Under the pieces are notes generated by a model. That model was not told the origin of the DNA, did not search any database, and worked only from the letters and a program-made list of their open reading frames with translations. A stretch of 64,000 nt of DNA from Lysobacteraceae bacterium NML95-0200 (GTDB lineage Bacteria > Pseudomonadota > Gammaproteobacteria > Xanthomonadales > Xanthomonadaceae). This document shows positions 60,281 through 64,000 of the stretch, one piece after another (positions within the stretch are counted from its first letter, which is position 1; the number at the start of each line of letters is the position of its first letter). The position numbers and the translations under genes are program-made. The stretch covers positions 1-64,000 of the forward strand of contig NWQQ01000018.1 of the NCBI GenBank assembly GCA_002798255.1, read 5' to 3'.

Positions 60281-60661
60281 GTGTTCTGTCGTCATCCCCT
60301 GCTGCAAACCTGGTTATTGCTTGCTGTAATGCTTGTGCCTGCTGCACTTGCAGCACAGGAGCAGCTGGTGCCTGCCGAGCAGGTACGCTATGACTATGCG
60401 CAGGTATTGAGTGTGCAGCCGGTTTATCAGGTGCTGAACGCCAGCACCGCAAGAGAGCAGTGCCGTCCACTGCCGGGCAGTGCGGTGCGTGAATGCCGCG
60501 AGGTGCGTGTGCCGCTGGAGTACCGCCGCCCGATTGCCTATGACGTGGATTACACCTATCGCGGTGTGAAGTATCGCTCGCGGATTGCGCAAAATCCCGG
60601 GCGCAGGTTGCGCATCCGTATCGGTATCACCCCGGTGGTGAGTGCGGAAGTCCGGCCATAG
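60281..60661 (+). CDS. Small hypothetical exported protein
   Basis: A 126-residue product (GTG start) with a signal peptide (about 1-25, ending ALAAQ) and a mature part with VRYDYAQVLSVQPVYQVL and VDYTYRGVKYRSRIAQNPGRRLR. The YDYAxVLxVxPVY pattern is common at the start of small outer-membrane or periplasmic proteins of xanthomonads, but no glycine zipper follows. Two cysteines may form a disulfide. The start is uncertain, since no ribosome site is obvious. It precedes the argF' leader region. Confidence 0.62.
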   Translation: MFCRHPLLQTWLLLAVMLVPAALAAQEQLVPAEQVRYDYAQVLSVQPVYQVLNASTAREQCRPLPGSAVRECREVRVPLEYRRPIAYDVDYTYRGVKYRSRIAQNPGRRLRIRIGITPVVSAEVRP

Positions 60662-60761
60662 TGCCCCTTGTCCAATTGCAAAGCGCATGCGAGCATAGCC
60701 GCCCATGAATGCATGCTTTTCCACTGCCGCTTATCAGTCCGCTGCCTGGCAGGCTGCGGGC

Positions 60762-60806
60762 ATGACCTCGCGCGCACGCCGCCGCTGCTTTGACAGGCCG
60801 GCGTGA
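60762..60806 (+). CDS. Putative arginine leader peptide (MTSRARRRCFDRPA)
   Basis: A 14-codon frame with five arginine codons (positions 4, 6, 7, 8 and 12), preceded by GGCAGG about 8 bases from the ATG. It ends 26 bases before the 5' arm of a strong terminator that lies just ahead of argF'. The three consecutive CGC codons fall exactly on the first arm of the pause hairpin. An in-frame upstream ATG (60705) would lengthen it to 33 residues. Translation is proposed to sense arginyl-tRNA supply. Confidence 0.65.
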   Translation: MTSRARRRCFDRPA

Positions 60807-60861
60807 GACTGCGTGCATGCAGATTTTCCAGCCCGGCCTTGTGCCGGGTTTTTTGTTTTTT
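60775..60861 (+). promoter_or_regulatory. Arginine attenuator of argF' (pause, antiterminator and terminator hairpins)
   Basis: Segment 1, CACGCCG (60775-60781, in the Arg codons), pairs with segment 2, CGGCGTG (60799-60805, over the leader stop). Segment 2 shifted, AGGCCGG (60795-60801), pairs with segment 3, CCGGCCT (60833-60839). Segment 3, CCCGGC (60832-60837), pairs with segment 4, GCCGGG (60843-60848), followed by T6-G-T6. The 2:3 and 3:4 pairings exclude each other. This is the standard layout of amino-acid operon attenuators. Confidence 0.68.
60832..60861 (+). terminator. Rho-independent terminator ahead of argF'
   Basis: A six-base GC stem (CCCGGC/GCCGGG) with loop CTTGT is followed by TTTTTTGTTTTTT. 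It ends 17 bases before the argF' ATG, so it is well placed to control read-through into the arg genes rather than to end a distant transcript. Confidence 0.85.
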
Positions 60862-60878: not shown

Positions 60879-61898
60879 ATGAAACATTTTTTGAACACGC
60901 AAGACTGGAGCCGCGCCGAACTGGATGCGCTACTGGCCGAGGCTGCGCGCATGAAGCAGCACAAATGGGGCGATGCGCTGAAAGGGCGCTCGATTGCACT
61001 CTTGTTTTTCAATCCGTCGATGCGTACCCGCACCAGTTTCGAGCTGGGCGCATTCCAGCTGGGCGGGCATGCCATCGTGCTGCAACCGGGCAAGGACGCT
61101 TGGCCGGTGGAATTTGACCTCGGCACGGTGATGGCGGGAGATACCGAGGAACATATCGCCGAAGTCGCCCGGGTGCTCTCGCGCTATGTGGACCTGATTG
61201 CCGTGCGCGCCTTTCCCAAGTTCATCGACTGGCAGGAGGACAGGCAAGACAAGGTGCTGAAGGCGTTTGCCCGCTATTCCACGGTGCCGGTCATCAATAT
61301 GGAAACCATTACCCATCCCTGTCAGGAATTGGCGCATGCGCTGGCCTTGCAGGAGCACTTCGGTAGCCGCGACCTGCGCGGCAAAAAATACGTGCTGACC
61401 TGGACTTATCACCCCAGGGCGCTGAACACTGCGGTGGCGAACTCGGCGTTGACCATCGCCACGCGCTTAGGGATGGATGTGACCTTGCTGTGCCCGAACG
61501 AGGATTACCTGCTGGATGAACGCTATATGCAGTGGGCGGCGCAGAATGTGGCCGAGTCCGGCGGCAGCCTTGTCATCAGCCATGACATTGAAAGCGCCTA
61601 TGCCGGTGCCGATGTGGTGTATGCCAAGAGCTGGGGGGCGCTGCCGTATTTTGGCCAGTGGGAAAGGGAAAAACCCATCCGCGATGCGCACCGGCATTTC
61701 ATCGTCGATGAGGCCAAGATGGCGCTGACCAATAACGGCGTATTCAGCCACTGCCTGCCGCTGCGCCGCAATGTCAAAGCCACCGATGCGGTGATGGACT
61801 CGCCGCAGTGCATCGCCATCAACGAGGCCGAGAACCGCCTGCATGTGCAGAAGGCGGTGATGGCGGCATTGCTTCAGGGGGCAGAGGGCAGGGGCTAG
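60879..61898 (+). CDS. argF': N-acetylornithine carbamoyltransferase (ArgF')
   Basis: A 339-residue transcarbamylase with the carbamoyl-phosphate motif [13 protein letters not shown] and [14 protein letters not shown]. It shows the AOTCase-specific features known from Xanthomonas: [32 protein letters not shown] and [17 protein letters not shown], in which the Lys corresponds to the carboxylated active-site lysine. It converts N-acetylornithine to N-acetylcitrulline, so arginine is made through acetylated intermediates. It is followed by argG after 50 bases and preceded by the attenuator. Confidence 0.95.
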
Positions 61899-61948: not shown

Positions 61949-63154
61949 ATGTCCGAATCCAGTAAAACCATCGTGCTCGCTTTTTCCGGCGGGCTGGATA
62001 CCAGTTTCTGCATCCCCTATCTGCGTGAGCAGGGCTGGCAGGTGCATACCGTGTTTGCCGATACCGGAGGAGTGGATGCCGGGGAGCGCGCCTATATCGA
62101 GCAACGCGCGGCGGAGCTAGGCGTGGCCAGCCATCGCACCATTGATGGAGGACCTGCGATTTGGGCGGGCTTTGTCAAACCCTTCGTCTGGGCGGGTGAG
62201 GGTTATCAGGGGCAGTATCCGCTGCTGGTGTCCGACCGTTATCTGATTGTCGATGCCGCGCTGGCGCGCGCCCGTGAGCTCGGCACGCGCGCCATTGCCC
62301 ACGGCTGCACCGGCATGGGCAATGACCAGGTGCGTTTTGATTTGGCGGTAAAGGCCAGCGGCGATTACCACATCGTTGCGCCCATCCGCGAAATCCAGAA
62401 AGAACACACCCAGACCCGCGCCTACGAGCAGAAATATCTGGAGGAGCGCGGCTTTGCCGTTCGCGCCAAACAGCAGCAATACACCATCAACGAAAACCTG
62501 CTGGGGGTAACGCTTTCCGGCGGCGAAATCGACCAATGGCAGGCGCCGGGCGAAGAAGCCCGTGGTTGGTGCAAGCCGCGCGCCGAATGGCCGGAAGCGC
62601 CGCTGCGGGTGCGTATCCGTTTTGTCGAAGGCGAGGCGGTGGCGCTGGATGGCGAGGCACTGCCGGGGCCGCAACTGCTGGCGCGGCTCAATACCCTGTT
62701 TGCCGCCTATGGCGTGGGGCGCGGTCTGTACACCGGCGATACCACCATCGGCCTCAAGGGGCGCATCGTCTATGAAGCGCCGGGGCTGGCGGCCTTGCTC
62801 GCAGCGCACCGGGCGCTGGAAGAAGCTGTGCTTTCCAAACAGCAAAACCGCTTCAAGCCGGAAGTTGCCCGCAAGTGGGTGGAGCTGGTGTACGAGGGTT
62901 TCTGGCATGACCCGCTGAAAACCGACCTGGAAGCGTTCTTGCAATCCAGCCAGCGCAGGGTCAATGGCGAGGTGTTGCTGGAAACCCACGGCGGGCGCGT
63001 GGATGCGGTGGCCGTTGAGTCGCCGCATGTGTTGAGCGCCAAGGGCGCGACCTATGCGCAGTCAGCCGACTGGGGCGTGGCCGAGGCCGAGGGCTTCATC
63101 AAACTGTTCGGCATGAGCAGCACGCTGTGGGCGGAAGTCAACGGGGACAGCTGA
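61949..63154 (+). CDS. argG: Argininosuccinate synthase
   Basis: A 401-residue enzyme with the ATP pyrophosphatase loop AFSGGLDTS (11-19), [14 protein letters not shown] and [18 protein letters not shown]. It joins citrulline and aspartate. In the xanthomonad pathway it acts after deacetylation of acetylcitrulline by the downstream enzyme. AGGGA lies 8 bases before ATG 61949. Its stop overlaps the argE start by one base. Confidence 0.95.
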
Positions 63155-64000
63155 TGTTGGACAAGGTACTGGAACATCTGGCCGCGCTGGTGGCCTTTGA
63201 TAGCCGCAATCCGCCGCGGGCGATGTCGGCCGACAGCCCGATGTTTGCCTATTTGCGTGAGCAGTTGCCGGGGTTTGATATCCGGGTGACCGACCACGGC
63301 GCTGGGGCAGTGTCGCTGCTGGCGGTGCGCGGCCAGCCATCGCTGCTGTTCAATGTGCATCTGGACACGGTTCCAGCCTCGCCCGCCTGGAGCGCCGACC
63401 CGCATATTTTGCGGGTGGAGGGTGGGCGTGCGATTGGCCTTGGCGCCTGCGATATCAAGGGCGCGGCTGCCGGGCTGCTGGCCGTGGCGCAGGCGGCAAG
63501 CGGCGATATGGCGATGCTATTTTCCAATGACGAGGAAGCCAATGACCCGCGCTGCATCGCGCATTTTCTGGCCAGCAATCATGGCTTCCAGAACGTGATT
63601 GTGGCCGAGCCGACCGGCTGCCGCGCGGTGCTGGCGCATCGCGGCATCAGTGCGGTGCGGATGCAGTTTCATGGCCGGGCAGGGCATGCCTCGGGCGCTC
63701 AGGCGATGCAGGCCAGCGCCCTGCATCAGGCGATGCGCTGGGGCACGCGCGCCCTTGAGCATGTGGAGGCGCACGCCCCGCAGGCCTTTGGCGGCTTGCA
63801 GGGGCTACGCTTCAATATCGGCCGGGTCGAGGGTGGCATCAAGGCCAATGTCATCGCGCCCGAGGCCGAAGTGCGTTTTGGCTTCCGTCCGCTGCCTTCG
63901 CAGGACATGGACGAATTGCACCGGCAGTTTCAGGGCTTCGCCGAGCCGGGCACGGATTACGAGGAAACCTTCCGGGGGCCGTCATTGCCCGCAGGCGATG
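63154..64000 (+). CDS. argE: Acetylornithine/acetylcitrulline deacetylase (partial, cut by window end)
   Basis: The open frame from ATG 63154 runs 282 codons to the edge. It is an M20 metallopeptidase with zinc-site His69 and Asp71 in FNVHLDTVP, Asp100 in GACDIKGAAAG, and Glu127/Glu128 in FSNDEEAND. Downstream of argF' and argG, it is expected to remove acetyl groups from N-acetylcitrulline, as shown for the Xanthomonas homologue. The start overlaps the argG stop (TGATG), so translation is coupled. Confidence 0.92.
   Translation, partial: MLDKVLEHLAALVAFDSRNPPRAMSADSPMFAYLREQLPGFDIRVTDHGAGAVSLLAVRGQPSLLFNVHLDTVPASPAWSADPHILRVEGGRAIGLGACDIKGAAAGLLAVAQAASGDMAMLFSNDEEANDPRCIAHFLASNHGFQNVIVAEPTGCRAVLAHRGISAVRMQFHGRAGHASGAQAMQASALHQAMRWGTRALEHVEAHAPQAFGGLQGLRFNIGRVEGGIKANVIAPEAEVRFGFRPLPSQDMDELHRQFQGFAEPGTDYEETFRGPSLPAGD

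Follow-up and report, generated by a model that had tools for sequence, protein, structure and literature searches.

A putative arginine-sensing leader-peptide attenuator upstream of argF' in Lysobacteraceae and related families

The attenuators of the proteobacterial trp, his, leu and thr operons combine a leader rich in the regulated amino acid, a leader stop codon beside segment 2, and an antiterminator and an intrinsic terminator that exclude each other. We know of no established attenuator in proteobacteria that senses arginine, and among the literature matches listed, mostly from open-access journals, there was none for argF'.

A small RNA of Xanthomonas oryzae, sRNA-Xoo5, has been described between PXO_00354 and PXO_00353, the latter coding for N-acetylornithine carbamoyltransferase (PMC3039613). 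Its 5' end was determined by RACE and its 3' end from clones, giving a length of 124 nt, and Northern blots displayed bands of about 130 and 100 nt, with the short band only late in growth (PMC3039613). The words arginine, argF and leader are absent from the main text of that paper, and its section 6 gives sRNA-Xoo5 no role involving a peptide or a terminator switch; PMC3771888 mentions neither Xoo5 nor argF. For Xanthomonas campestris an arginine operon of eight genes has been published (PMC1865377).

Here we analyse a stretch of 64,000 nt from Lysobacteraceae bacterium NML95-0200, referred to as the window. An earlier note on this DNA had proposed an attenuator sensing arginine in front of argF'-argG-argE.

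The arginine operon and its leader in the window

All features described in the following lie on the forward strand. The gene argF' for N-acetylornithine carbamoyltransferase (60879..61898) matches the NCBIfam equivalog NF003384 with 618 bits (cut-off 288). It is followed by argG for argininosuccinate synthase (61949..63154; NF003385, 772 bits, cut-off 603) and by the 5' part of argE for acetylornithine deacetylase (63154..64000; NF006439, 450 bits, cut-off 345), which runs past the window end at 64000. On the extended contig (L190) argE is followed by a Xanthomonas-type fusion acetylglutamate kinase gene, a small frame, argC and argH. These downstream genes exceed the cut-offs of NF003386, TIGR01850 and TIGR00838, and the arginine genes are close together or overlapping. 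Judged jointly with the attenuator reading, the operon under control of the leader very probably comprises argF'-argG-argE-argA/B-argC-argH. The small frame upstream of argC (L190:5576-6061, 161 aa), which follows the acetylglutamate kinase gene, has no NCBIfam match.

Upstream, a frame of 126 aa with a signal-like N-terminus (60281-60661) ends just 5' of the attenuator promoter; a stretch resembling its C-terminus is also found 5' of argF' in L048 and L171. We looked for a phage origin of the region and found no match. A general scan for a consensus sigma-70 promoter returned none at the site. A promoter is nevertheless predicted at 60668..60696, with the -35 element TTGTCC (60668-60673), a 17-nt spacer and the extended -10 element TGC-GAGCAT (60688-60696). 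The layout TTGC.., about 17 nt, TGCGANNAT, 6 to 9 nt and ATG is similar in most relatives compared, the comparison covering spacings of 4-9 nt only.

The leader had been described as a frame of 14 codons, five of them Arg codons. This frame, from ATG 60762 to TGA 60804-60806, translates as MTSRARRRCFDRPA and does contain one CGC codon, a run of CGC CGC CGC and one AGG. The Arg codons stand (CGC at 60771, 60777, 60780 and 60783, with a further AGG at 60795), but the start and the length had to be revised. Ala-6 and Ala-3, which are both encoded 5' of 60762, are invariant in 154/154 near-family loci, and the Ala-3 codon is GCC in 78 of them, GCG in 58, GCT in 15 and GCA in three. As the amino acids are kept while the third bases vary, translation appears to be selected there and the start should lie further upstream. 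The codon 19 positions before the Met of the motif encodes Met in 37 sequences of a set of 56, and we infer ATG 60705 as the start. The leader frame MNACFSTAAYQSAAWQAAGMTSRARRRCFDRPA (60705..60806) would thus have 33 codons plus stop and end in ...GMTSRARRRCFDRPA. From the sequence and the comparison of loci, the conserved peptide core G-M-T-S-R-A-R-R(-R) is placed at 60759..60785. The three leader peptides that were tried match no Pfam or NCBIfam family.

All of the pairings previously described were found in place. Segment 1 (60775..60781) can form seven base pairs with 60799-60805, and segment 2 (60795..60801), the 5' strand of the antiterminator just 5' of the leader stop codon, can form seven with 60833-60839. 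Segment 3 (60830..60839) has two alternatives, namely segment 2 via 60833-60839 or segment 4 via 60830-60837. The 3:4 stem pairs 60830-60837 with 60843-60850 (eight pairs, six of them GC), and segment 4 together with the T6-G-T6 tail (60849-60861) makes up the intrinsic terminator (60843..60861).

The fold energy of the site has a z-score of -0.31, with 70/200 shuffles folding as well or better, and one terminator-like site is observed versus 0.8 in shuffles. A detector was set up that calls a terminator, a complement to it serving as segment 2 and a frame with clustered Arg codons ending there, where the pairing may run past the arm. It matched four of 2122 overlapping window tiles on both strands, all four at the leader site. 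The fold energy being unremarkable, the case for a real element rests on conservation.

No Rfam family matches the window at its cut-off. Matches below the cut-offs are anti-hemB (27.6 bits), Xoo5 (22.2), ncS037 (18.7), asX2 on the other strand (17.9), SorX (17.1) and sX14 (15.6 bits). The match to anti-hemB of Burkholderia (60772-60858; E 9.5e-5, cut-off 49.5) scores above that to Xoo5 at the same place, a resemblance that perhaps reflects merely the common shape of GC-rich terminators.

Conservation of the leader frame and its arginine codons

The first sample held 167 loci after removal of eight duplicates (L115, L116, L117, L118, L120, L122, L126 and L129), 155 of them from near families (f1, f12, f2, f3) and 12 from other families. 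Also left out of the near set were L002, a second carbamoyltransferase, and L018, whose gene is cut short by the end of the contig. The TSRAR-type pattern TG-AC-TC-CG-GC-CG is present 5' of argF' in 155/155 near-family loci from four families; in one of them, L063, the motif lies further upstream and was read separately from the other 154. Since the pattern itself fixes Thr, Ser, Arg, Ala and Arg, the invariance of these residues says no more than that every near locus passed. The pattern is absent before argF' in 12/12 first-sample loci of the other families.

Of 200 genomes of the order scanned for the exact pattern, 81 had a match, namely 80/82 near-family genomes and 1/118 others. In the two near-family genomes without a match (G299 and G317) a contig end removes the upstream region. 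One match of G348 and a second match of G250 are located on contigs other than the argF' contig and are probably due to chance. With a reversed control pattern one match was obtained in the 200 genomes (G086).

We also inspected 80 named loci from Xanthomonas, Stenotrophomonas, Pseudoxanthomonas, Luteimonas, Lysobacter, Thermomonas and others. All but one of them (79/80) have SRAR, with the core MTSRARR in 75, MASRARR in two, and TSSRARR and ITSRARR in one each; the exception, L219, reads GTTSRTRR. In Xanthomonas albilineans (L261) the leader starts with GTG and the core is GMASRARR in place of GMTSRARR. The nearest named relatives of the window are a MAG, "Pseudomonadota bacterium" (98% in ArgF'), and the Lysobacteraceae bacteria NML07-0707 and NML08-0793.

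Set to three Arg codons in six, the detector matches 145/155 near loci and thus overlooks ten; at four in nine it matches 36/155. Arg occupies the first and second core positions in 154/154 near loci and the third in 152. As in known attenuators, the predicted translated leader thus carries codons for the amino acid that the operon itself makes. The attenuator proposal would have been undermined by relatives without the Arg-rich frame or without the alternative pairings; in the near families both are kept, which supports the proposed arginine attenuator before argF'-argG-argE.

In the distant families, a frame with a run of Arg codons likewise precedes a terminator in most loci. The peptides are different and the plan is similar, for example PRRRRV, VRRLRRP, ARRRDRRP and GRRARRTRRP, and many of these loci display GCTGGGT followed by ACCCAGC-loop-GCTGGGT and T's. 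The detector matched 19/32 distant loci at three Arg in six codons and 15/32 at four in nine. Eight more (L169, L170, L172, L302, L306, L310, L311 and L319) have an Arg-run frame and a terminator by eye, the judgement resting on these two features. Five of the 32 (L171, L176, L307, L312 and L315) are without such a leader. The leaders of L168, L303, L304 and L317, among L166-L177 and L301-L320, end in RRPG or QRPG.

The choice of Arg codons in the near loci is narrow. The first is CGC or CGT in 154/154 and the second in 153, with one CGA. The third is CGA in 143/154, while CGA accounts for 1.3% of the 2366 Arg codons in argF' of the same loci. The window is without CGA: its codon at the usual place of CGA is CGC, and that of L005 is CGT, an exception that would need explaining. 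Together with its closest relatives L003, L004 and L005 it has a longer Arg run at the third position (RRR or RRRR). In the distant leaders 44/131 Arg codons of the richest nine-codon stretch are CGA, where a few of the stretches may not be leader.

CGU, CGC and CGA are all decoded by the tRNA with the anticodon ACG, read through inosine. Arg tRNAs with the anticodons ACG, CCG, TCT and CCT were found in the genome of the window (30 of 46 tRNA loci scanned). Isoacceptors are charged unequally, which has been verified for Arg among others (PMC1183508). The nearly fixed CGA offers a natural test of the idea that attenuators pick their control codons by the response of the isoacceptors to starvation.

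Alternative helices and the position of the ribosome

Covariation was assessed in 56 of the 154 sequences with at most 80% mutual identity. The helix columns were taken from the member L020, which favours the structure somewhat, and L016 was aligned without segment 2. The seven pairs of the terminator core are paired in 392/392 cells, so that all 56 sequences are complete, and two pairs have two-sided changes, one in 26 sequences and the other in 24 (50 cells). Of 383 antiterminator cells 93.7% are paired, compared with 22-56% when the helix is slid; a single pair has a two-sided change, T-A to C-G in 17 sequences. Both helices exceed all 500 shuffles in cells paired, in cells with two-sided change and in covariation score, and drop sharply when slid. 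The count of pairs with a two-sided change does not rise above the shuffles, which ignore relatedness (470 and 191 of 500 reach it), nor does the number of pair types for either helix (451 and 500 of 500).

Free folding of the 56-sequence alignment with RNAalifold returned the terminator together with a hairpin of three pairs within the codons. The antiterminator was not returned, as expected, since the two structures are mutually exclusive. The predicted antiterminator (2:3) and terminator (3:4) thus share segment 3, as the two alternatives of an attenuator do. In the free RNA at least four pairs form between the codon region and the region 5' of segment 3 in 142/152 loci, the window included, and a fixed 1:2 pairing is not kept among the loci. 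Covariation in three stems and conserved Arg codons had been suggested as a check; the Arg codons are conserved, and the terminator and the antiterminator covary.

In 152/154 loci the terminator is followed by eight bases of which at least five are T. The remaining two, L041 and L107, have intact stems but no terminator at this T-tail threshold and were left out of the folding. L051, L072 and L077 have no unbroken antiterminator. In 150/150 scored loci (four of the 154 were unscored) the leader stop codon is at most 12 nt from the start of segment 2, and in 149/150 the third Arg codon lies 16-24 nt 5' of it. By this geometry a terminating ribosome is predicted to cover segment 2 and a stalled one to leave it free, as in known attenuators.

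The effect of the ribosome was modelled by folding. With a ribosome on the third Arg codon, represented by deleting the RNA up to it, segment 3 forms at least five pairs with the stretch holding segment 2 in 152/152 loci, against 294/760 folds with a shuffled spacer. With the ribosome at the stop codon the terminator forms in 151/151, and without a ribosome in 139/152. When segment 4 is included and the ribosome sits on the Arg codons, the minimum-energy fold keeps the terminator in 112/152, so the antiterminator would have to win by forming first, that is by folding order.

Taken together, we consider it very likely that the leader functions in ribosome-mediated attenuation of transcription and senses charged tRNA-Arg, chiefly the isoacceptor whose anticodon is ACG. 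A ribosome would start on a nearly leaderless mRNA, as suggested by the RACE-mapped Xanthomonas RNA and predicted in the window. If Arg-tRNA were short, it would stall on the Arg codons and leave segment 2 free, the 2:3 antiterminator would form and transcription would go on. If Arg-tRNA were plentiful, the ribosome would reach the stop codon and cover segment 2, and the 3:4 terminator would release a short leader RNA.

The attenuator may do the work of ArgR, which this lineage was not found to encode. ArgR (PF01316) is present in 8/200 genomes of the order and in four of the 159 most complete, all eight belonging to family f11; as a control, the same search matched 9/14 well-known genomes, E. 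coli and B. subtilis included. In f11 argF' is matched far less well, with best hits of about 1e-57 to 1e-70, or, in G303, not at all, which suggests another carbamoyltransferase and a swap of control. L188 and L189, with their much weaker argF' match, belong to f11, the only sampled family with ArgR. The attenuator suggests how the lineages to which Xanthomonas, Stenotrophomonas and Lysobacter belong can regulate the synthesis of arginine in the absence of ArgR.

Rival readings and known systems

The leader RNA of Xanthomonas is already in Rfam: the Xanthomonas argF' leader is RF02242, "sRNA-Xoo5". The family scores above its gathering cut-off on the argF' leader in 7/9 loci of one set and 1/12 of another (L216, L223, L259, L198, L261, L209, L197 and L026), the complete leader frame lying inside the match. 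In the window, 60707-60812 reaches 22.2 bits, below the gathering cut-off of 50, and corresponds by position and motif, not by score; the cut-off is also unreached in L005 and in the f12, f2, f3 and distant loci tried. The 124-nt model stops 5' of the terminator and begins with CUAUG, which suggests that transcription starts 2 nt upstream of the leader AUG and that the mRNA would be nearly leaderless. In Xanthomonas the start of the model is 7 nt 3' of the -10 element, and the -10 spacing in other genomes agrees. The terminated RNA is predicted to be about 161-167 nt long (seven named loci) versus the bands of about 130 and 100 nt and the cloned end at 124 nt; trimming or processing would have to account for this gap. 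The control had been suggested to be perhaps undescribed. As regards the RNA, this does not wholly hold, for it is on record in Xanthomonas; the passages describing it there give it no role as an attenuator. The description of RF02242 as an sRNA probably needs revision, and a Northern-verified but unexplained sRNA would gain a testable role.

Could the RNA instead act in trans, with the frame being incidental? Both the source paper and Rfam class it as an sRNA, and its Northern bands vary with the growth phase (PMC3039613; RF02242). The frame, however, is kept at the codon and amino-acid level with its stop fixed beside segment 2, the RNA stands before argF' in every locus examined, and its alternative pairings involve the operon's own terminator, so that we regard this reading as improbable. 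An additional by-product role in trans, as for rnTrpL of S. meliloti, may exist. A slightly less probable reading again is that translation of the leader controls Rho-dependent termination or mRNA decay rather than an intrinsic terminator. Arg codons in a leader work that way in speF orf34 of Salmonella (PMC6386406), but here the terminator core is fully paired in 56/56 sequences and followed by at least five T in 152/154 loci. The unremarkable fold stability (z -0.31) would fit a GC-rich frame lying by chance before an ordinary intergenic terminator. Such a coincidence is rejected, with next to no probability left to it, by the conservation over many genera, the covariation, the codon choice and the lack of any other site in 2122 tiles.

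A further reading concerns the peptide. In a nascent-peptide-assisted attenuator A-x-x-A-x-G-M-T-S-R-A-R-R would aid the stall or sense arginine directly, the Arg codons being only part of the signal. Ala-6, Ala-3, Thr+1, Ser+2 and Ala+4 are invariant in 154/154 loci (the last three within the search pattern), and the third-base variation at Ala-3 and Thr+1 is roughly that of argF'. The near families have three core Arg codons, whereas 25/27 distant leaders have four to six in their richest nine codons, a few of which stretches may not be leader. Near-invariant residues other than Arg, and more Arg codons in relatives with other peptides, are left unexplained by a pure codon-counter and give ground for this reading. 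Yet the peptide core is not kept in families f4-f10, whose similar terminator follows an Arg-run frame, and the named loci include MASRARR, TSSRARR, ITSRARR and GTTSRTRR (L219). The Ser codon is TCG in 151/154 near loci versus 41% in argF', which hints at a constraint at the codon or RNA level too. We therefore hold assistance by the peptide to be possible but rather doubtful. A hybrid in Lysobacteraceae and three related families, in which the near-invariant peptide cooperates with Arg codons read by a single tRNA and usually ending in the rare CGA, is put forward just as tentatively. The conserved residues are suggestive of an arrest peptide like TnaC, SpeFL or AAP, as a candidate only. If the hybrid were true, a few control codons would suffice with the peptide, and relatives without it would need longer Arg runs; codon-counting attenuation and nascent-chain sensing would be combined in one switch that serves as the main arginine control where no ArgR was found.

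The ribosome-mediated attenuator, which we prefer, can be set beside several known systems. Salmonella speF orf34 likewise has consecutive Arg codons in a conserved leader, where pausing at low arginine alters the folding of the mRNA; unlike argF' it belongs to polyamine synthesis, works through Rho, translation and RNase G, and has the core HIRRT (PMC6386406). In Sinorhizobium meliloti trpL (rnTrpL/peTrpL) the mRNA also starts at the leader ATG and the attenuator RNA is released, but the amino acid is tryptophan, and its RNA and peptide act in trans (PMC7298713). For the carAB leader of Pseudomonas, upstream of a gene of arginine supply, attenuation has been proposed as well, with a leader peptide in P. 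aeruginosa; the proposed signal, however, is pyrimidine (PMC4997734). In 13 loci of 13 genomes the region before carA gave no detector match to an Arg-run attenuator (one of the two G254 matches being used). The specificity of the cysS leader motif uORFC-8-2 of Rhodobacterales was, as here, found by comparison, but concerns cysteine and a tRNA synthetase gene (PMC8632094). Unlike the argF' attenuator proposed here, RF02242 is described as an sRNA, with a 124-nt model that ends 5' of the terminator.

The closest likeness in plan is to the trp, his, leu and thr attenuators: the argF' leader is also rich in the regulated amino acid, has its stop codon beside segment 2 and can form an antiterminator or a terminator that exclude each other. 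It differs from them in that it would sense arginine, that it has a near-leaderless start and that its peptide core is strongly kept, beyond the control codons, in four families. Most simply, the leader can be read as a classic attenuator whose specificity is new, which would add arginine to the amino acids whose biosynthetic operons use leader-peptide attenuation.
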